Assembly: GCF_900111935.1 (NCBI RefSeq)
Contig: NZ_FOYN01000003.1
Span: forward strand, 491,800-555,799
DNA from: Halorubrum sodomense
GTDB lineage: Archaea; Halobacteriota; Halobacteria; Halobacteriales; Haloferacaceae
DNA length: 64,000 bases
Reading direction: 5' to 3'
Below the pieces are notes generated by a model. That model was not told where the DNA came from. It did no database searches and saw nothing but the letters and a program-made list of their open reading frames with translations. This document shows positions 2,719-26,103 of the stretch, piece after piece. Positions within the stretch are counted from its first letter, which is position 1. Every line of letters starts with the position of its first letter. A program made the position numbers and the translations under genes.

Positions 2719-2728
2719 CGTAACAAAG
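2719..2728 (+). promoter_or_regulatory. TATA-like element CGTAACAAAG
   Basis: CGTAACAAAG begins 33 nt before the ATG at 2752, the spacing expected for a leaderless haloarchaeal transcript. It is a variant of the CATAACAAT element seen at other genes of the region. Confidence 0.55.
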
Positions 2729-13627: not shown

Positions 13628-15448
13628 TCACGGTCGGTACAGCACCCGTCCGATCGGCACGTCCCCGTCCAGCGCGTCGACGCTGATCCGGAGCGAGTTC
13701 GAGACCGACTCGGCGTCCGGGAGGGACGGCACCGCCGGACCGAGCCCGAGGCAGATGCGCTCGGTCCCGGCGGTGCGACCGAGCGTCCGGAGGAAGGGCA
13801 CGGCCGCGGTGAGATCGACGCCGGACCCGTCGTCGCCGAACCGCTCCAAGACGGTCTCGACGCCGAGACACAGGAGGTGATCGTCGAGCGGTGTCGTCAG
13901 GTCGGCGTCGACGACGATCGGGTGACCGTCGGTCCGGATCTCGCTCCCGCTCACCGCGCTCCGCGGCGAGTGATCCAGGAACACCCCGTCTCGGTCCCGC
14001 CCGGGACAGTCGATGTCGCAGTCGATCACCGCCGACCCGGGCGCCAGTCTGAGGTCGACGGCGACGCCGCCCGCCGCGTCCCCGTCGACGGTGACGTTCC
14101 GCAGTTCCGTCCAGTGTGGCGGCGGCGGGCGCCGTCGGTCCGGGCGGTAGGGGAGCGCTCCTACCGGGCCGCGGCGCACCGCCGGTGTCCCGTCGATGTC
14201 GCATCGGATCTCCGTGTCGCGGACGACGAGACTCCGCGCCACCGGCGACTGTTCGACGACGGACTGGGACAGCGGCGACGACCGGGCACGGATCGTGCAG
14301 TCGCGGATCTCCGCGCCCGCGGGTAACGGCGGCGCGCCCTCGCGTTGGACGCCCTGTTCGACGACGACCGCCCGCGTGTTGAACTCATCCGACGCGTCCA
14401 CCGCGCCGCCGGTGTAGCGACTGAGATCGATCTCGATCGTGCAGTTCTCGACGTAGCTCCCAGCGCCGCTGATGCGGGCGCTCGTCGCGTTGTTGTTGAG
14501 GAAGTAGCAGTCGACGATCTCGACGTTTCCCGGCGTCCGGGAGCCGTAGACGCCGTTGTTGCCGAACTCGCGGAAGTCACACCCCTCGATCCGGACCGTT
14601 CCCTTGTTCGACCAGCCGACCCAGACACCGATCCGCCCGTTCCCTCCCTTGTACCCGTCGATGCGAGAGCCCTTCTTCGCCACCGCGTCCCGCAGCACCC
14701 CCCGTCCGTCCTCGTCGTTGACCGCGAGGGCGAACGCGCTCGGCGTTCCGCCGTCCGATTCGCTCGTCCCGCGGCCGAGGAACTCGACGTCTTGGATGTG
14801 GAAGTGGTTCCGGCAGCGCAGCCGGATCCCGGTCGTGGTGTCGTCGGGGCGGACGTCGACATCGACGTTCTCGATGAGCACGTCATCGGGCACCGGGTCG
14901 TAGTTGAACAGGAGCCGCGTGTAGCCGGCCGGGAGAACGAACCGGGCGTCGCCGTCGCCGAGCACGCCGACGCGGTCGGCGTCGATCTCGACCACTCCGT
15001 CGAAGCTGTACTCGCCCTGGGGGAACCGCACCAGCGTCCCGTCCGAGAGCGCGTCTTCCAGGCGGTCGTTCACCGGGTCGTTCCCGCTCGGGTCCAGTCC
15101 CAGGTCGTCGACCGCGTCCAGCACCCGATCGAACTCGATCCCGTGACGCGTCCCGAGGTCTCCGTCGTCGGGCTCGTCCGCGGACCCGCCGTCGGGGCCG
15201 TCGTCCGACGCCCCGTCGTCCGCGCCCGGATCGTCGGGAGCGGCGTTCGCCGCCCCGTCCGACCCCAGACCGAGACAGCCGGCCGCCGAGGCCACCGCGG
15301 CACCGACGACCCCGAGATAGGGGCGCCTGCCGCAGGAGCCGGGCCCGCCGCCGACGCCACGCGAACCGTCGCCCCGATCCGAGCCATCGTCGTCGGGTGA
15401 ACCGTCGTCGCTCTCGGAACGGTGGTCGTCATCCCGGCCGGCGTTCAT
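13628..15448 (-). CDS. Beta-helix lipoprotein, paralogue of the 10266 gene
   Basis: Exported protein of 606 residues. The N-terminus is Asp/Gly-rich, then GRRPYLGVVGAAVASAAGCLG gives a Tat-like signal ending in a lipobox Cys near residue 58, so it is likely membrane-anchored. A low-complexity Asp-rich linker precedes the beta-helix, which shares long stretches with the 10266 protein (HGIEFDRVLDAVDDLGLDP, FHIQDVEFLGRG, GVWVGWSNKGTVRIEG). It lacks the five C-terminal repeats of its paralogue. Its ATG overlaps the upstream hydrolase stop by 4 nt, so it is the second gene of that operon. A lyase or epimerase role on an acidic glycan is possible but not shown. Confidence 0.85.
   Translation of the reverse strand: MNAGRDDDHRSESDDGSPDDDGSDRGDGSRGVGGGPGSCGRRPYLGVVGAAVASAAGCLGLGSDGAANAAPDDPGADDGASDDGPDGGSADEPDDGDLGTRHGIEFDRVLDAVDDLGLDPSGNDPVNDRLEDALSDGTLVRFPQGEYSFDGVVEIDADRVGVLGDGDARFVLPAGYTRLLFNYDPVPDDVLIENVDVDVRPDDTTTGIRLRCRNHFHIQDVEFLGRGTSESDGGTPSAFALAVNDEDGRGVLRDAVAKKGSRIDGYKGGNGRIGVWVGWSNKGTVRIEGCDFREFGNNGVYGSRTPGNVEIVDCYFLNNNATSARISGAGSYVENCTIEIDLSRYTGGAVDASDEFNTRAVVVEQGVQREGAPPLPAGAEIRDCTIRARSSPLSQSVVEQSPVARSLVVRDTEIRCDIDGTPAVRRGPVGALPYRPDRRRPPPPHWTELRNVTVDGDAAGGVAVDLRLAPGSAVIDCDIDCPGRDRDGVFLDHSPRSAVSGSEIRTDGHPIVVDADLTTPLDDHLLCLGVETVLERFGDDGSGVDLTAAVPFLRTLGRTAGTERICLGLGPAVPSLPDAESVSNSLRISVDALDGDVPIGRVLYRP
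14947..15145 (-). repeat. 199-bp block identical to 12911-13109
   Basis: This is the second copy of the identical segment shared by the two beta-helix genes. Shorter near-identical stretches also occur at about 12541-12660 versus 14579-14700. Confidence 0.85.
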
Positions 15449-17034
15449 AAGTAACCCAGGCCGCGAAGGCGCTCTTCGACCGCTTCGTCGCTCCCGGGAC
15501 CGTCGGTCGCCGCGTCCGAGGAGGCGTGGTCCCGCTCGACTACATCCCGGGTTGCCGGCGGCGACCCGGGCTCGAACAGCTCCGTCAGCACGCGGCCATG
15601 GGCGGCCGCGGGAACGGGCTCGCCGAGCCCGTGGAGCAGGGTCGGCGCCACGTCGACGACCGTCGCCCCTTCGACCGCGATGTCGGCGGCTATCGGGGGG
15701 CCGCGGGCGAAGAGGACGCCCTCGGGCCGGTGATAGCCGGCGATCCCGTCAGCGTCGACGACGGTCTCGTCGGCGAGTCCGGGCTTGACATGATACCCCT
15801 CGACGCCCTCAACGACCACGTCGGGCGCGAACTCGTCTTCGGGGTTGAGGTCGTCGCCGTCGCGGACGGAGAGCACCCGCTCTCCGGTCTCGGGGTCGGT
15901 CACCGCCGCGAGCGCGGACATCACCTCCGACTTGACTCGGTCGCGCTCGCCGGGGGCGACGGCCCCGTCGTCGAACCGCGACGTGTCGTTGACGTAGACG
16001 CTGCCGAGCCCGTGGAGGAACGCCCGCGTCTGCGCGGAGTCGACGTCGTAGAGGGCGTGGTCGCCGGGCACCGCCCGCGCGACGCTGTCGACGACCGACG
16101 CCGGAAGCCGCTCGACGAGCGTCTCGTCGTCGATGCCGATCCGTGCTAACGCGTTCAACACGGTCGACTTCGACACCCCGGCGCGCGAGAGCACGCCCCG
16201 GGCCCCCGTCGAGCGCTTCGGCGTCAACAGTCCCGCGTCCGCCAGCGCTCGGTTGACGTTGACGACCCGCGATATCGGCCCGAACCCGTGGTCGGAGACG
16301 ACGTACAGCGTCGCGCCCAGCCGGTCGCAGTAGGTCATCACCTCGGCGAGGACCGCGTCCAGCTCCCGGTAGTGTTCCAGGATCACCTCCTCGTCCCAGA
16401 TCAGATGCTGGAGCCTGTCGGGCGCCGTGAAGGTGAAGAAGAACAGTCGCCAGTCTTCCCGCTCCGTGAGCGACCGCAACAGCTCGCGGCGCGCCTCGAA
16501 CAGCGACGCGAAGTCCGCGAGGAACTCGTCGCGCCGGTCCTCGCCGTACTCGTGCCACCTGAGGCCGACTCGGTAGTCGGGAATCTCTTCGCGGATCGCC
16601 TCGCCCAGCCGGGCCGGCTGCGTGAACCCCGCCGCGTCGGTCGAGCTCGTCATCATTCCGGCGACCATCGCTCCGTCGTCGCCGACCCCGCCGGCCGGGT
16701 ACGTCATCGGCACGTTCGCGACGACGGCGGGCGAGAGCAGCTCCCAAAGCGGCGGCTGTCGGAGGTCCTCGCGGTTGTAGGGCCGCTGACTGTAATCGCT
16801 CCCCAGTTTCATGAACTCGTAGAGTCCGTGTCGGTCGGGCCAGGTACCGGTCGCGATGGAGGGCCACGCGACCGGCGTGTTCGCTGGCGTCGTGCTCCGG
16901 AGGGGACCGGCGGCTCCCGTCTCGATCAGCTCGGCGAACGCGGGGAGCTCCCCAGCTTCGATCCACGGCCGGACGAGCGGCCACGGGACGCCGTCAAGCC
17001 CCAACACGAACGCGCGGTTACCGTCGTCGCTCAC
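15445..17034 (-). CDS. Alkaline-phosphatase-superfamily phosphohydrolase/phosphomutase-like protein
   Basis: Protein of 529 residues, type I phosphodiesterase/nucleotide pyrophosphatase fold. Metal and nucleophile positions are visible: FVLGLDGVPW (Asp14), STTPANTPVAWPSIATG (Thr region about 48-53), APDRLQHLIWD near 210, VVSDHGFGPIS near 255, and GYHRPEGV near 460. The C-terminus EERLRGLGYL is usual for this group. No signal peptide is seen. Substrates in related proteins are phosphate diesters or sugar phosphates; the real substrate here is unknown, but a glycan-linked phosphate fits the location. The start is GTG 17034, overlapping by 4 nt (GTGA) a 13-codon frame. Confidence 0.85.
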   Translation of the reverse strand: MSDDGNRAFVLGLDGVPWPLVRPWIEAGELPAFAELIETGAAGPLRSTTPANTPVAWPSIATGTWPDRHGLYEFMKLGSDYSQRPYNREDLRQPPLWELLSPAVVANVPMTYPAGGVGDDGAMVAGMMTSSTDAAGFTQPARLGEAIREEIPDYRVGLRWHEYGEDRRDEFLADFASLFEARRELLRSLTEREDWRLFFFTFTAPDRLQHLIWDEEVILEHYRELDAVLAEVMTYCDRLGATLYVVSDHGFGPISRVVNVNRALADAGLLTPKRSTGARGVLSRAGVSKSTVLNALARIGIDDETLVERLPASVVDSVARAVPGDHALYDVDSAQTRAFLHGLGSVYVNDTSRFDDGAVAPGERDRVKSEVMSALAAVTDPETGERVLSVRDGDDLNPEDEFAPDVVVEGVEGYHVKPGLADETVVDADGIAGYHRPEGVLFARGPPIAADIAVEGATVVDVAPTLLHGLGEPVPAAAHGRVLTELFEPGSPPATRDVVERDHASSDAATDGPGSDEAVEERLRGLGYL

Positions 17035-17072
17035 CGCGACCGCCCCCGTCGACGCCGCTCGGTCCGAATCAT
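17031..17072 (-). CDS. Candidate leaderless mini-ORF before the hydrolase
   Basis: The 13-residue frame MIRTERRRRGRSR has its ATG at 17072, 34 nt from the TATA-like element at 17099-17109, and its TGA overlaps the hydrolase GTG by 4 nt. The position suits a leaderless transcript start with translational coupling to the main gene. Expression is unproven. Confidence 0.4.
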   Translation of the reverse strand: MIRTERRRRGRSR

Positions 17073-17098
17073 TGAGCCTCGTTTGGGGAAAGACGAAA

Positions 17099-17109
17099 TT
17101 TGTTATGAC
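17099..17109 (-). promoter_or_regulatory. TATA-like element GTCATAACAAA
   Basis: The core CATAACAAA on the minus strand lies 34 nt before the mini-ORF ATG at 17072 and about 72 nt before the hydrolase GTG. Confidence 0.55.
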
Positions 17110-19618: not shown

Positions 19619-19643
19619 GGGTCCACACTAGGCGGTAGTCGGC

Positions 19644-19655
19644 TTTGTTATCAAC
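19644..19655 (-). promoter_or_regulatory. TATA-like element GTTGATAACAAA
   Basis: GATAACAAA on the minus strand begins 34 nt before ATG 19618 and is another member of the shared promoter motif. Confidence 0.55.
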
Positions 19656-21221: not shown

Positions 21222-21231
21222 CATTGTTATG
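21222..21231 (-). promoter_or_regulatory. TATA-like element CATAACAATG
   Basis: CATAACAATG on the minus strand lies about 47 nt before the flippase ATG at 21184. Confidence 0.5.
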
Positions 21232-22383: not shown

Positions 22384-24198
22384 TCAGACCGTGACGCTCT
22401 TTGCGAGGTTGCGCGGCTTATCGATGGCCCGCCCCCGCTGTTTCGCGGCGTGATACGCGACGAGTTGGAGCTGGACGTTGGCGAGCACGCCGGCGAGCTC
22501 CGGATGGGTCGACGGGACCGACAGGACGTGGTCGACGGTCTCCGCGAGGTCGGAGGTCTCGCCGCCCGCCACCGCGACGACCGGGCCGCCGCGCGCACGT
22601 ATCTCCTTGACGTTACCGAGCGTCTCCGTGTCGTCCGTCCCGCCGTTGAACACCGCGAACACCGGCGTCTCCTCGGTGACGAGCGCGAGCGGCCCGTGTT
22701 TCAGCTCCGCGGCGGTGAACCCCTCGGCGTGCTCGTAGGTGATCTCCTTGAACTTCAGCGCCCCCTCCAGCGCGACCGCGTGTCCCGGGCCGCGTCCGAT
22801 AAAGAAGTACGACTCCGAGTCGGCGAACGCGTCGGCGATCCGCTCCGCCGCGCCGCTCTCGACGACCCGGCGGACCTGATCCGGTAGTCGCGTCAGCGCG
22901 GAGAGGAACGCCGCCGCGTCCGGCGACGGGTCGCCGACGGCGTCCCGGCGGATCCGCTCGGCGAGCAGCGACAGCGTCGCGACCTGTGCGGAGAACGACT
23001 TCGTCGCGGCGACGCCGATCTCCGGTCCGGCACGGACCAATAGCGTGTCGTCGCACTCCCTCGTCAGCGACGAGCCGACGACGTTCGTCGCCACCATCGT
23101 CCGCTCCGCGCTGGCCGCCCTGACGGCCGCGATCGTGTCCGCGGTCTCGCCGCTCTGTGAGATCGCTATCACGAGCGTCCCGTCCTCCTCGGGCGGCGTT
23201 GACCCCGCGTACTCGGAGGACATGAACGCGCGTGCGGGAACCCCCCGGCGTGCGAGCAGCGATTCCGCGTACATCGCCGCGTGATACGAGGTCCCCATCG
23301 CGACCAGGTGAACCCGGTCGATCCCGTCGAAGCTGCCGGGCAGGAACCCATCGAGGTCGACCTCCTCGCCGCCCGAGTCGGTCCGACCGCTGACCGATCG
23401 GCCGAGGGCGGTCGGCTGCTCGTTGATCTCTTTGAGCATGTAGTGGTCGTATCCGCCCTTCCCGGTGTCTTGCGGGTCCCAGTCGACGGTCTCGGTCGCG
23501 CGGTGGACGCGCTCGCCGCGCTCGTCGGTGACGGTGAAGCCGGACGGCGTGACCCGGACGACGTCGCCGTCCTCGAGGTACGCCACACGGTCGGTGAACT
23601 CCAGGAACGCCGGCACGTCGCTCGCGAGGTACTGCGTCGAATCGCTCGCGCCGACCACCAGCGGTGAGTCGTTTCGAGCCGCGTACACCGCCTCCCTGCC
23701 GCCGATGACCGCGGCGACGGCGTAGCTCCCCTCGATCCGATCGATGGCCGCGCGGAACGCCGCCGCCGGGGCCGCCCCGTCCGCGAGCGCCGACTCGATC
23801 AGGTGCGGGATTACCTCGGTGTCGGTGTCGCTCTCGAAGGCGTGTCCCGCGTGAGAGAGCTCGCGACGGAGCCGTTGGTAGTTCTCGATGATCCCGTTGT
23901 GAACGACGGCGACGCGCCCCGAGCAGTCCGTGTGCGGGTGTGCGTTCGCGTCGGTCGGCGGTCCGTGGGTGCTCCACCGCGTGTGACCGATCCCGAGGGA
24001 CCCGCTCGGGGGGTCCGCCGCGAGCGCGTTCCGGAGGTCGTCGATGCCGCCCGCCTGCTTGCGGACGTCCACGTCGCGGTCGGTCTGAACGGCGAGGCCG
24101 GCCGAGTCGTAGCCGCGGTACTCGAGGTTTTCCAGCCCGACGAGCAGTTCGTCGACCGCGTCGTCGGCCGCTCCGATCCGAGCCACGATGCCGCACAT
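22384..24198 (-). CDS. glmS: Glutamine--fructose-6-phosphate aminotransferase (isomerizing)
   Basis: Makes glucosamine-6-phosphate from fructose-6-phosphate and glutamine, the first step to UDP-GlcNAc. Length is 604 residues, normal. The class II glutaminase domain starts with MCGIVARIG (Cys2 nucleophile), then GLENLEYRGYDSAG, GHTRWSTHG and VHNGIIENY. Two SIS isomerase domains follow (AMGTSYHAAMYAESL, IAISQSGETADT, GRGPGHAVALEGALKFKE), and the end KPRNLAKSVTV is canonical. The ATG at 24198 shares one base with the TAA of a 31-residue frame that begins 33 nt behind a TATA element. Supply of amino-sugar to the adjacent glycan genes is the likely link. Confidence 0.96.
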   Translation of the reverse strand: MCGIVARIGAADDAVDELLVGLENLEYRGYDSAGLAVQTDRDVDVRKQAGGIDDLRNALAADPPSGSLGIGHTRWSTHGPPTDANAHPHTDCSGRVAVVHNGIIENYQRLRRELSHAGHAFESDTDTEVIPHLIESALADGAAPAAAFRAAIDRIEGSYAVAAVIGGREAVYAARNDSPLVVGASDSTQYLASDVPAFLEFTDRVAYLEDGDVVRVTPSGFTVTDERGERVHRATETVDWDPQDTGKGGYDHYMLKEINEQPTALGRSVSGRTDSGGEEVDLDGFLPGSFDGIDRVHLVAMGTSYHAAMYAESLLARRGVPARAFMSSEYAGSTPPEEDGTLVIAISQSGETADTIAAVRAASAERTMVATNVVGSSLTRECDDTLLVRAGPEIGVAATKSFSAQVATLSLLAERIRRDAVGDPSPDAAAFLSALTRLPDQVRRVVESGAAERIADAFADSESYFFIGRGPGHAVALEGALKFKEITYEHAEGFTAAELKHGPLALVTEETPVFAVFNGGTDDTETLGNVKEIRARGGPVVAVAGGETSDLAETVDHVLSVPSTHPELAGVLANVQLQLVAYHAAKQRGRAIDKPRNLAKSVTV

Positions 24199-24293
24199 TA
24201 CGCGACCACCCCGTCGACCGCGTCGCCGTCCGCGCGGCGAGGCGCGCGGCGGCGGCGCACACCGGTCGTGATCGCTTTGGGGCCGATTTGCAT
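24198..24293 (-). CDS. Candidate leaderless mini-ORF before glmS
   Basis: A 31-residue frame starts MQIGPKAITTG, has an Arg-rich centre, and stops with TAA overlapping the glmS ATG as TAATG. Its ATG sits 33 nt from the TATA element CCATAACAAAG, while the glmS ATG is about 128 nt away. If the transcript is leaderless, ribosomes would meet this frame first. It may be a leader peptide or a long untranslated leader. Confidence 0.4.
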   Translation of the reverse strand: MQIGPKAITTGVRRRRAPRRADGDAVDGVVA

Positions 24294-24318
24294 ACCCACC
24301 GCATGCCGAGAGGAATAC

Positions 24319-24328
24319 TTTGTTATGG
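24319..24328 (-). promoter_or_regulatory. TATA-like element CCATAACAAA, glmS
   Basis: CCATAACAAA on the minus strand matches the shared glycan-region element. It is followed by an ATG at 24293 at the leaderless distance. Confidence 0.6.
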
Positions 24329-24670
24329 ACCGGATTTTGCCGCCGTTCACCGGTAAGTGACGGATAGCAAGCGGAAGCCTCGCCCTTACGCGAGGGAGTC
24401 AATGATACGCTCGGTCGGCGTTTCACTGTTCCTCTCGCCTGTTGCCGGTCGCCGTCTCGCTTTCTATGCCACCGAACTCTCGGTACTCGTGGGGGAGAGC
24501 GACGACGAAACTTGTCGTGCGAAGAACACGATATTTCTCCCGTATACGGCCGCGACGATACTGTTTACTCAATTATTCAGTACAGAAATGCTTCGTGAAG
24601 ATGTGATAGAGTTAAGTGGATTACATGAGTAGCGGCAACATGACCCGCTATACCCTGTTCGACCCGTGAA
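24329..24670. other. AT-richer intergenic region, no supported gene
   Basis: This stretch is clearly richer in A and T than the flanks, especially after 24530. A 91-codon open frame from GTG 24357 exists, but its composition is unlike the acidic neighbours and it has no recognisable start signal. I treat the stretch as non-coding, marking the border between the glycan region and the regulatory island. Confidence 0.5.
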
Positions 24671-24674
24671 ATGA

Positions 24675-24681
24675 TATAATA
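24675..24681 (+). promoter_or_regulatory. TATA box TATAATA
   Basis: TATAATA starts 28 nt before ATG 24703 and 87 nt before the DUF7344 ATG at 24762, so a leaderless transcript would begin at the short frame. Confidence 0.6.
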
Positions 24682-24702
24682 CCGAAACTCCCCACGATAA
24701 CG

Positions 24703-24765
24703 ATGTACGACAACGTAACGAGAACAGACGACGTTGCGACAGATCAAAACGGTGGTGTACGATGA
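24703..24765 (+). CDS. Candidate leaderless mini-ORF before DUF7344 gene 1
   Basis: A 20-residue Asp/Thr/Gln-containing frame (starts MYDNVTRTDD) ends with TGA overlapping the next ATG by 4 nt. A strong TATA box sits at the right distance for its ATG. Confidence 0.4.
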   Translation: MYDNVTRTDDVATDQNGGVR

Positions 24766-25361
24766 GTGCCGACTCAGAAGCGAAAACGCGGGACGCGGCC
24801 CAGGCCGATCGGGAGTTCTCGGGACCGGAAACCGATGCTTCGAGTACTGAGCCGGAGAATATCGAGCGAGCAGAGATCGGCTTCGATCAGCTGTTCGAGA
24901 TCCTGAAAAACAAGCGGCGCCGACGGGTGATACGGTACCTGCTGGAAGGCAAGAACGAGGAGGCGACGTTGGACGAGCTGGCCGAGGCCATCGCCGCGCG
25001 CGAGACGGGCAAGGACATCAAACAGATCTCCTCGCAGGAACGCAAGCGCGTGTACGTCGGACTGTATCAGTGTCACCTGCCGAAGATGGACGACTACGGC
25101 GCGATCTCGTACAACAAGCCGCGCGGCCGGATCGAGACCGCAGAACACACGGACCTGTTCGAACGCTACCTCTCAGTCGACGACGATGTCGATGGTTCCG
25201 GGTGGACGCGGTACCACTCGACGCTGTCGCTCGTCGCCGGCGCCTTCCTCGTCGTTCCCGTCGTCGTCGGGGCGTTCATATCGAACGCGGCGCTTCAGGT
25301 GGTGACCGCTCTCCTCGTCGGAGCGCTCGTCGGCGTGTCGGCGTACCGGTACTTCGAGTGA
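24762..25361 (+). CDS. DUF7344 winged-helix membrane protein 1
   Basis: Protein of 199 residues. An acidic leader (1-40) is followed by a winged-helix DUF7344 domain (about 42-145): FDQLFEILKNKRRRRVIRYL, EEATLDELAEAIAARETG, then ERKRVYVGLYQCHLPKMDDY. Two hydrophobic helices form the tail (about 150-195), so the DNA-binding-like domain is tied to the membrane. A paralogue follows at 25549. Such proteins are widespread in halophiles; the signal sensed and the targets are unknown. The ATG overlaps the mini-ORF stop. Confidence 0.85.
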   Translation: MSADSEAKTRDAAQADREFSGPETDASSTEPENIERAEIGFDQLFEILKNKRRRRVIRYLLEGKNEEATLDELAEAIAARETGKDIKQISSQERKRVYVGLYQCHLPKMDDYGAISYNKPRGRIETAEHTDLFERYLSVDDDVDGSGWTRYHSTLSLVAGAFLVVPVVVGAFISNAALQVVTALLVGALVGVSAYRYFE

Positions 25362-25471
25362 CGCGGCACGGGCAGCGCTCCGGTTTCGCGGCCGGTTCAG
25401 CGACTTTTGGGCGAGAAGTGAAAGTGACGCGAATATGGGTTAAAAGCGTCCTAAGTCCGGATAAGCCAGAC

Positions 25472-25479
25472 CATAACTA
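25472..25479 (+). promoter_or_regulatory. TATA-like element CATAACTA
   Basis: CATAACTA starts 33 nt before the mini-ORF ATG at 25505 and 77 nt before the DUF7344 ATG at 25549. Confidence 0.45.
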
Positions 25480-25504
25480 TGTCCCGTTTGCGAAAGGAAC
25501 GAGC

Positions 25505-25546
25505 ATGGAAAGAGACGGGACCGACGAACAGGACCGGTGCTCCTGA
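25505..25546 (+). CDS. Candidate leaderless mini-ORF before DUF7344 gene 2
   Basis: The 13-residue frame MERDGTDEQDRCS stops 2 nt before the main ATG. Its ATG has the leaderless spacing from CATAACTA. Like the mini-ORF of the first DUF7344 gene it is rich in Asp, Thr and Gln. Confidence 0.35.
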   Translation: MERDGTDEQDRCS

Positions 25547-25548
25547 CG

Positions 25549-26103
25549 ATGAGTTCCGCTGACACCGAGCCGTTGACGCCCGACGGTGTCTTCGAGCTAC
25601 TGAGCAACCACCGGCGCCGAATGGTGTTGTACTACCTCCGGACGAAGGGCGGATCGGTCGACGTCCAGGAGCTCGCCACGGAGATAGCGGCGATGGAAAA
25701 CGATGTCTCGGCCGACGAACTGACCAGCCAGCAGCGGAAGCGCGTCTACGTGTCCCTGTATCAGACCCATCTCCCGAAGATGGCGGAGATGAACACCATC
25801 GAGTACGACAAAGACAGCGGGACCGTTCGGCTCGCAGACCGGGCGGACGACATCGACGAGTACCTCACGACGGACGACCAACCGACGTACCCGTGGCGAT
25901 TCCACTACTTCCTCCTCACGGTCGGCGGGGCGACGGCGCTGTCGCTCACGGTGCTGAGTGTTCCCGGCTTCGGCGCCGTCCCCCTGCCGGTGGTAGGCGC
26001 AGCCGTACTCCTCGTGTTCACCCTCTCGGTCGCGTGGCAGTACTGGCAGGCGCAGAACCGCACGGAGCCGGTTCCCGTCGAACTGCGTCAGTACGACCAG
26101 TAA
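25549..26103 (+). CDS. DUF7344 winged-helix membrane protein 2
   Basis: Protein of 184 residues and paralogue of the preceding gene. The winged helix spans about 12-110: GVFELLSNHRRRMVLYYLRT, VDVQELATEIAAMEND, QQRKRVYVSLYQTHLPKMAEM. Two membrane helices (about 122-165, FLLTVGGATALSLTVLS and LPVVGAAVLLVFTLSVAW) and a short polar tail follow. Order and spacing suggest tandem duplication with separate promoters. ATG 25549 is chosen over the upstream GTG at 25537 because it matches the family start. Likely a membrane-bound regulator. Confidence 0.85.
   Translation: MSSADTEPLTPDGVFELLSNHRRRMVLYYLRTKGGSVDVQELATEIAAMENDVSADELTSQQRKRVYVSLYQTHLPKMAEMNTIEYDKDSGTVRLADRADDIDEYLTTDDQPTYPWRFHYFLLTVGGATALSLTVLSVPGFGAVPLPVVGAAVLLVFTLSVAWQYWQAQNRTEPVPVELRQYDQ

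Follow-up and report, generated by a model that had tools for sequence, protein, structure and literature searches.

Leaderless mRNAs that open with an unannotated small ORF, joined to the following gene by an RTGA stop/start, are already known from mycobacteria (PMC4633059, 2015), where the ORF rather than the peptide was proposed to act in cis. Also known are the uORFs of long leaders in Haloferax volcanii (PMC4983044), frames of 15 to 31 residues before normal genes, with two HTH-10 genes listing uORFs of equal length and mass. In Haloferax, all nine of the overlapping gene pairs tested were strictly coupled, and Shine-Dalgarno motifs, which in H. volcanii do not serve de novo initiation, were common at overlaps (PMC6728339). 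For one Haloferax pair, reinitiation decreased by 60% at a distance of 13 nt and was abolished at 22 nt, and reinitiation in E. coli needs no more of the upstream gene than its last 15 nt (PMC10666635). In addition, a bicistronic design for Corynebacterium combines a leaderless promoter, a short fore-cistron, and a coupled gene (PMC10367133).

The haloarchaeal arrangement reported here shares features with each of these systems. Like the haloarchaeal overlapping pairs (PMC6728339, PMC10666635), it has ATGA/TGATG overlaps or a distance of a few nucleotides at most and, in some cases, possibly a Shine-Dalgarno-like motif inside the upstream ORF; the upstream partner in those pairs is a normal gene, whereas here it is a frame of 10 to 51 codons at a predicted 5' end. 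Unlike the mycobacterial small ORFs (PMC4633059), the frames are archaeal, tied to a candidate promoter box and one polysaccharide cluster, kept over genera without peptide conservation, and predicted from sequence alone. The H. volcanii uORFs differ in lying within leaders of 150 to 250 nt, and the uORF section of that paper presents neither a conservation test nor an overlap with the main start (PMC4983044). The Corynebacterium design is a synthetic device (PMC10367133), whereas the present arrangement is natural. No prior description of it in haloarchaea was found in open-licence papers.

In our reading, to which we assign a probability of roughly 0.7, the mini-ORFs are lead-in cistrons, predicted to be translated, that would deliver ribosomes to the main gene by termination-reinitiation. 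Haloarchaeal mRNAs are mostly leaderless (72% of protein-coding transcripts in H. volcanii; PMC4983044), and Shine-Dalgarno motifs reportedly go unused de novo; a conserved leaderless lead-in frame would be a concrete answer to how genes with a promoter tens of nucleotides upstream are translated. Furthermore, annotation can miss such a class of conserved 5' cistrons.

Mini-ORFs at the DUF7344, glmS, and phosphodiesterase genes

The window, that is, the whole 64,000-nt stretch of Halorubrum sodomense DNA that was analyzed, carries two tandem genes for DUF7344 proteins (genes 1 and 2) in the neighborhood of a polysaccharide cluster with glycosyltransferases, a polysaccharide flippase, a DegT-type aminotransferase, a phosphodiesterase, and glmS. 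The features considered are the following:

2720..2728, plus strand: box whose main gene starts directly (ATG 2752, 32 nt on)
15445..17034, minus strand: type I phosphodiesterase gene, GTG start
17031..17072, minus strand: phosphodiesterase mini-ORF, 13 codons (MIRTERRRRGRSR), GTGA overlap, ATG 34 nt from box
17098..17106, minus strand: box of the phosphodiesterase gene (ATAACAAAT)
19643..19651, minus strand: box whose main gene starts directly (ATG 19618, 33 nt on)
22384..24198, minus strand: glmS, MCGIVARIG start
24198..24293, minus strand: glmS mini-ORF, 31 codons, TAATG 1-nt overlap, ATG 33 nt from box
24318..24326, minus strand: box of glmS (ATAACAAAG)
24567..24615, plus strand: promoter-like block of gene 1 (ACTCAATTATTCAGTACA ... 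AGAGTTAA), conserved in the seven-orthologue alignment, putative main promoter
24675..24681, plus strand: TATAATA of the preliminary description, starting 28 nt before the mini-ORF 1 ATG, not conserved
24703..24765, plus strand: mini-ORF 1, ATG 24703, 20 codons (MYDNVTRTDDVATDQNGGVR), stop 24763-24765, ATGA overlap with gene 1
24762..25361, plus strand: gene 1, DUF7344 protein, PF24035 match, start at ATG 24762 supported by orthologues
25473..25481, plus strand: RTAAC(A/T)A box of gene 2 (ATAACTATG)
25505..25546, plus strand: mini-ORF 2, ATG 25505, 13 codons (MERDGTDEQDRCS), stop 25544-25546, predicted leaderless
25549..26103, plus strand: gene 2, DUF7344 protein, PF24035 match, structure model

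Both DUF7344 mini-ORFs were present at the positions and with the lengths, overlap, and gap given in a preliminary description of the window; the gap between the mini-ORF 2 stop and the gene 2 ATG (25549) is 2 nt. That description also stated that two paralogues with the same layout made chance less likely. Two paralogues in one genome are weak evidence, because such frames also occur in the background: of the 188 genes in 464 kb of the same genome whose free upstream stretch is 110 nt or longer, 14 (including gene 1) have an ATG frame of 10 to 30 codons ending at -2 to +4 of the computed start, or 22 if any ATG/GTG candidate start is accepted, a rate that is approximate given that the home-made gene finder set the gene 2 start too far in (25621). 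What exceeds chance is the conservation of the frames, and on that ground the conclusion stands.

The gene 2 mini-ORF occurs in all seven orthologues of the genus, with 13 to 15 codons and an end at -4 or a 2-nt gap. Searches of the genus, family, and class gave 43 gene-2-like loci (G208 is counted twice, for two identical copies, and G257 and G352 are identical in protein). Twenty of the 43 combine an RTAAC(A/T)A box, an ATG at 32 or 33 nt, and a mini-ORF of 10 to 42 codons; 17 have the box without an ATG at 31 to 35 nt, which argues that the box does not depend on a mini-ORF to work; and in 6 the pattern detects no box. Relative to the main start, the 20 mini-ORFs end at -4 (eight loci), +2 (five), -11 (three), -14 (three), and +12 (one), so that 19 end between -14 and +2, the exception being G202, whose mini-ORF stops 12 nt short of the main start. 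On a quick tree, mini-ORF presence needs only two changes: all 17 loci of gene 2's own clade, which branch outside a group of 26, have the mini-ORF, and within the group of 26 one sister clade has it (3/3) and the remaining relatives do not (23/23). ATG 25479 as the mini-ORF start, which would give 27 codons ending 14 nt into gene 2, was rejected; of the seven sequences aligned, G000 and G008 alone have this ATG. Upstream of the gene 2 box, at 25440-25472 and in the orthologues, lie two imperfect inverted repeats (TAGGA..TCCTA and CCGGATAATCCGG-like), a possible operator.

The tandem gene 1-gene 2 pair is present in 7 of 52 genomes of the genus, and six of the seven orthologues keep the gene 1 mini-ORF (20, 20, 20, 19, 20, and 20 codons), which ends in a 4-nt RTGA overlap, ATGA in five and GTGA in one. 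In G040, which has lost the gene 1 mini-ORF, the equivalent ATG stands as far from the gene 1 promoter-like block as the mini-ATGs do and reads in frame into the main protein. This block (ACTCARTT...TTAAT...TATA), taken at its AT-rich octamer, lies 86 to 95 nt before the mini-ATG (the equivalent ATG in G040) in six of seven orthologues and, by scan, 110 nt before it in G042; no RTAAC box was found at 32 to 33 nt before the gene 1 mini-ATG. The TATAATA at 24675, from which the mini-ORF had been considered leaderless, is peculiar to this genome; an AT-rich octamer is likewise seen in G045, at 26 nt, whereas those of the other four genomes with the mini-ORF are weaker. Given that relatives do not conserve TATAATA and that their conserved promoter-like block is placed some 95 nt upstream, the gene 1 mini-ORF is probably leadered, not leaderless; a second, leaderless start may exist in this one species. 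A gene 1-like gene of Haloarcula sp. GH36 has no mini-ORF. The section of the upstream block at 24567-24584 (ACTCARTTAYTCA..ACA) is well conserved over the seven orthologues, resembles a repeated octamer, and is possibly a regulator site.

A look upstream of other DUF7344 genes, the check proposed in the preliminary description, does show similar frames, in particular clades only. A DUF7344-wide trait was rejected, with a mini-ORF in 7 of 77 other paralogues (counted without loci fetched by a box-plus-ATG pattern, in a set whose box survey is biased toward DUF7344 and glmS loci) and none in 23 of the 43 gene-2-like loci. The arrangement is also not confined to DUF7344, being found at glmS and the phosphodiesterase gene of the same cluster. 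In another DUF7344 subgroup (MNETE.LTKDEV; L023, L024, and L026), a 14-codon frame with an ATGA overlap was seen in three genomes, with no RTAAC box at 32 to 33 nt.

At glmS, all nine loci with a box and an ATG at 32 to 33 nt (six genomes of the genus plus G110, G118, and G163) have a mini-ORF ending in an exact 1-nt overlap, TAATG or TGATG. This count covers such loci only; among the rest, several have a different mini-ORF or lack one, and neither L015 nor L016 contains a glmS start. The nine mini-ORFs are 23 to 51 codons long, and their ATG-to-ATG distances all differ (71 to 155 nt) and are all 2 mod 3. The main start is secure, since GlmS begins with a fixed Met-Cys, the Cys of which we take to be catalytic.

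At the phosphodiesterase gene, all seven genus orthologues that keep the cluster have a box, an ATG at 33 to 35 nt, and a 13-codon mini-ORF with an RTGA end (-4); in G009, where the homologue is more distant, the pattern detects no box. Several genomes (L180-L186) have a short inverted repeat of the CCTCC..GGAGG type in the stretch from the box to the mini-ATG, and the G040 gene is apparently split in two (L186 and L188), with a stop inside one match.

A held-out case was provided by a plasmid of Haloarcula sp. GH36, which carries a gene-2-like gene with a box, a 33-nt spacing, 14 codons, and a 2-nt gap and a glmS with a box, a 32-nt spacing, 45 codons, and a 1-nt overlap; the annotated record lists none of these 5' mini-cistrons. 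The plasmid check comprised three hits examined of 64 records. Plasmid genes of Salinibaculum and Halorubrum lacusprofundi have the box and no mini-ORF, and in their 15 N-terminal residues they match members of the mini-ORF-less group.

The RTAAC(A/T)A box

The pattern RTAACWAWG occurs six times in the window, versus 0.15 expected. Its exact form RTAACAAAG has four copies in the nine-contig, 3.03-Mb genome, three of them within about 22 kb here; a control pattern has five copies. Among 70 distinct RTAACAAAG boxes in the loci collected, there were 8 ATGs at 32 nt, 17 at 33 nt, and 2 at 34 nt, whereas 52 further offsets averaged 0.69, the loci fetched by a box-plus-ATG pattern (L131-L133 and L138-L145) being left out. 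At glmS, gene 2, and the phosphodiesterase gene, the ATG found 32 to 34 nt from the box is that of a mini-ORF. Two main genes of the cluster start directly at 32 to 33 nt (ATG 2752 and ATG 19618), and a glycosyltransferase gene has a GTG start 32 nt after a box variant. Two more ATAACAATG boxes, at 2340-2348 and 21222-21230 on the minus strand, have no ATG at 26 to 39 nt.

The spacing of the RTAAC(A/T)A box is about that of a TATA box from a leaderless start, and we therefore infer that the box is a core promoter element. Upstream of gene 2, the motif CATAACTA (25472-25479) begins 33 nt before the mini-ORF 2 ATG. The gene 2 mini-ORF is very likely leaderless by prediction, because the box lies 32 to 33 nt ahead of it in 20 of 20 loci and has the same spacing to main starts elsewhere in the cluster. 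The earlier claim that both mini-ORFs are leaderless therefore survives, by position, for gene 2 and is not supported for gene 1.

No description of the haloarchaeal box was found in open-licence papers, the sole paper listed there with both "taacaaag" and "haloarchae" being one on quinones. The finding would expose a promoter box specific to the polysaccharide cluster. More tentatively, RTAAC(A/T)A could define a polysaccharide regulon as an alternative core promoter element of haloarchaea, with either a dedicated TFB/TBP pair or the DUF7344 regulators themselves perhaps recognizing it; transcripts would start on the AUG, and a leaderless lead-in cistron would be required where the main ORF cannot start there, as with GlmS and its fixed N terminus. 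The odds are somewhat against this broader proposal; if it were true, evolution would have arrived at its own version of the synthetic, leaderless bicistronic design.

Chance, peptide content, and the proposed ribosome handover

For a chance expectation, the stretch between the two ATGs was shuffled with the distance fixed and, in a second version, with random phase. With the distance fixed, 12.9 of the 20 gene 2 frames, 3.3 of the 6 gene 1 frames, and 0.32 of the 9 glmS frames were expected to end at or near the main start, whereas 19, 6 (all exactly at -4), and 9, respectively, did so; with the phase randomized, the expectations fell to 5.7 for gene 2 and 1.0 for gene 1. The P values of these tests overstate the strength, because the loci are related by descent and orthologues within the genus are not independent. 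The overlaps of genes 1 and 2 alone are modest evidence, because an ATGA-type start often supplies the stop at a fixed distance. Their high fixed-distance expectations would suit a by-product without coupling function, in which the box fixes the start, an ATG is tolerated there, and ATGA supplies the stop. At glmS, however, the TAATG/TGATG stops are not supplied by the letters of the start codon, and nine lengths share one phase with an expectation far below the number seen; together with the 7/7 count at the phosphodiesterase gene and the stable presence of mini-ORFs within clades, this makes a by-product decidedly improbable.

The peptides bear on two other explanations. Their richness in Asp, Thr, and Gln, pointed out in the preliminary description, is mild, and it is not common to the orthologues. 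As regulatory leader peptides, the mini-ORFs would through their translation sense something such as an amino acid or ribosome stalling and tune the main gene in the manner of attenuation. In favor of this, the mini-peptide at the phosphodiesterase gene is rich in Arg and conserved in part (mean pairwise identity, 0.73; differences by codon position, 0.14/0.16/0.26), and within the genus the gene 2 peptides have D4, T6, and D10 in common; but no peptide is common across genes or genera, differences at gene 2 codon positions 1 and 3 are equally frequent (0.39 and 0.39), and the glmS peptides, of 23 to 51 residues, have no evident similarity. By eye, no attenuator-type enrichment is common to gene 1, gene 2, and glmS, and Arg richness is found only at the phosphodiesterase gene. 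We consider regulation by a leader peptide unlikely. The mini-ORFs could also encode small proteins with their own function, in an operon with the main gene, as stable clade presence and the partly conserved phosphodiesterase peptide would allow; the peptides, 10 to 51 residues long, are little conserved and have no composition in common, which makes this very improbable. A conserved functional peptide was likewise rejected as the main reading, given the absence of evident glmS peptide similarity and the equal differences at gene 2 codon positions 1 and 3. A frame-shifted N terminus of the main protein was rejected as well, the main starts being fixed by alignment and glmS having its MCG start.

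The frames, their overlaps, the box, and its spacing are conserved. Relatives keep this layout while the peptide varies freely, and for that reason the mini-ORFs probably hand ribosomes on to the main gene, as lead-in cistrons would. We infer the transcript starts, the translation of the mini-ORFs, and the dependence of the main ORFs on them as follows. For gene 2, glmS, and the phosphodiesterase gene, the cluster-specific box, which occupies the TATA position, would make transcription begin on or beside the mini-ORF AUG; the resulting mRNA would be leaderless, with initiation at its 5' end. The ribosome would read 10 to 51 codons, stop at an overlapping or adjacent stop/start (ATGA, GTGA, TAATG, TGATG, or TGAnnATG), and then reinitiate on the main ORF. 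At gene 1, the same relay would run from a different promoter, probably with a leader of about 65 nt. In each case the frame would count, and the peptide would be mostly irrelevant. Several observations speak against this relay: the gene-2-like loci with a box and no mini-ORF or with no box, the early end of the G202 mini-ORF, the weak Shine-Dalgarno-like matches at gene 2, and the absence of a gene 1 mini-ORF from G040 and Haloarcula sp. GH36. Set beside the published distances, mini-ORFs of 10 to 51 codons that end within a few nucleotides of the main start appear to lie within the known needs of reinitiation. The longest Shine-Dalgarno-like matches are 4 to 9 nt at glmS (good; at least 4 nt in 9/9 and at least 5 nt in 6/9), 3 to 6 nt at gene 1 (fair), and mostly 3 to 4 nt at gene 2 (weak); about 33% of background windows have a match of at least 4 nt.

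Products of genes 1 and 2

Genes 1 and 2 both encode DUF7344 proteins (PF24035), with E values of 1.4e-28 and 4.6e-32 and scores of 99.5 and 110.6 bits, respectively, above the curated Pfam score of 27.8. The best named relative of gene 2 is in Halorubrum coriense (86%). DUF7344 was not found mentioned in open-licence papers, and a PDB sequence search gave no significant match. In the structure model of the gene 2 product (mean pLDDT, 84), a helical domain with a two-stranded wing is followed by helices at 116-135 and 146-170, so that the modeled fold is a winged-helix-like domain plus two long C-terminal helices. A Foldseek search with this model gave no match at an E value of 0.001; its top match was a weak one, to an ArsR winged helix (E value, 0.079; probability, 0.99). 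The gene 2 product would likely be a membrane-anchored DNA-binding regulator.
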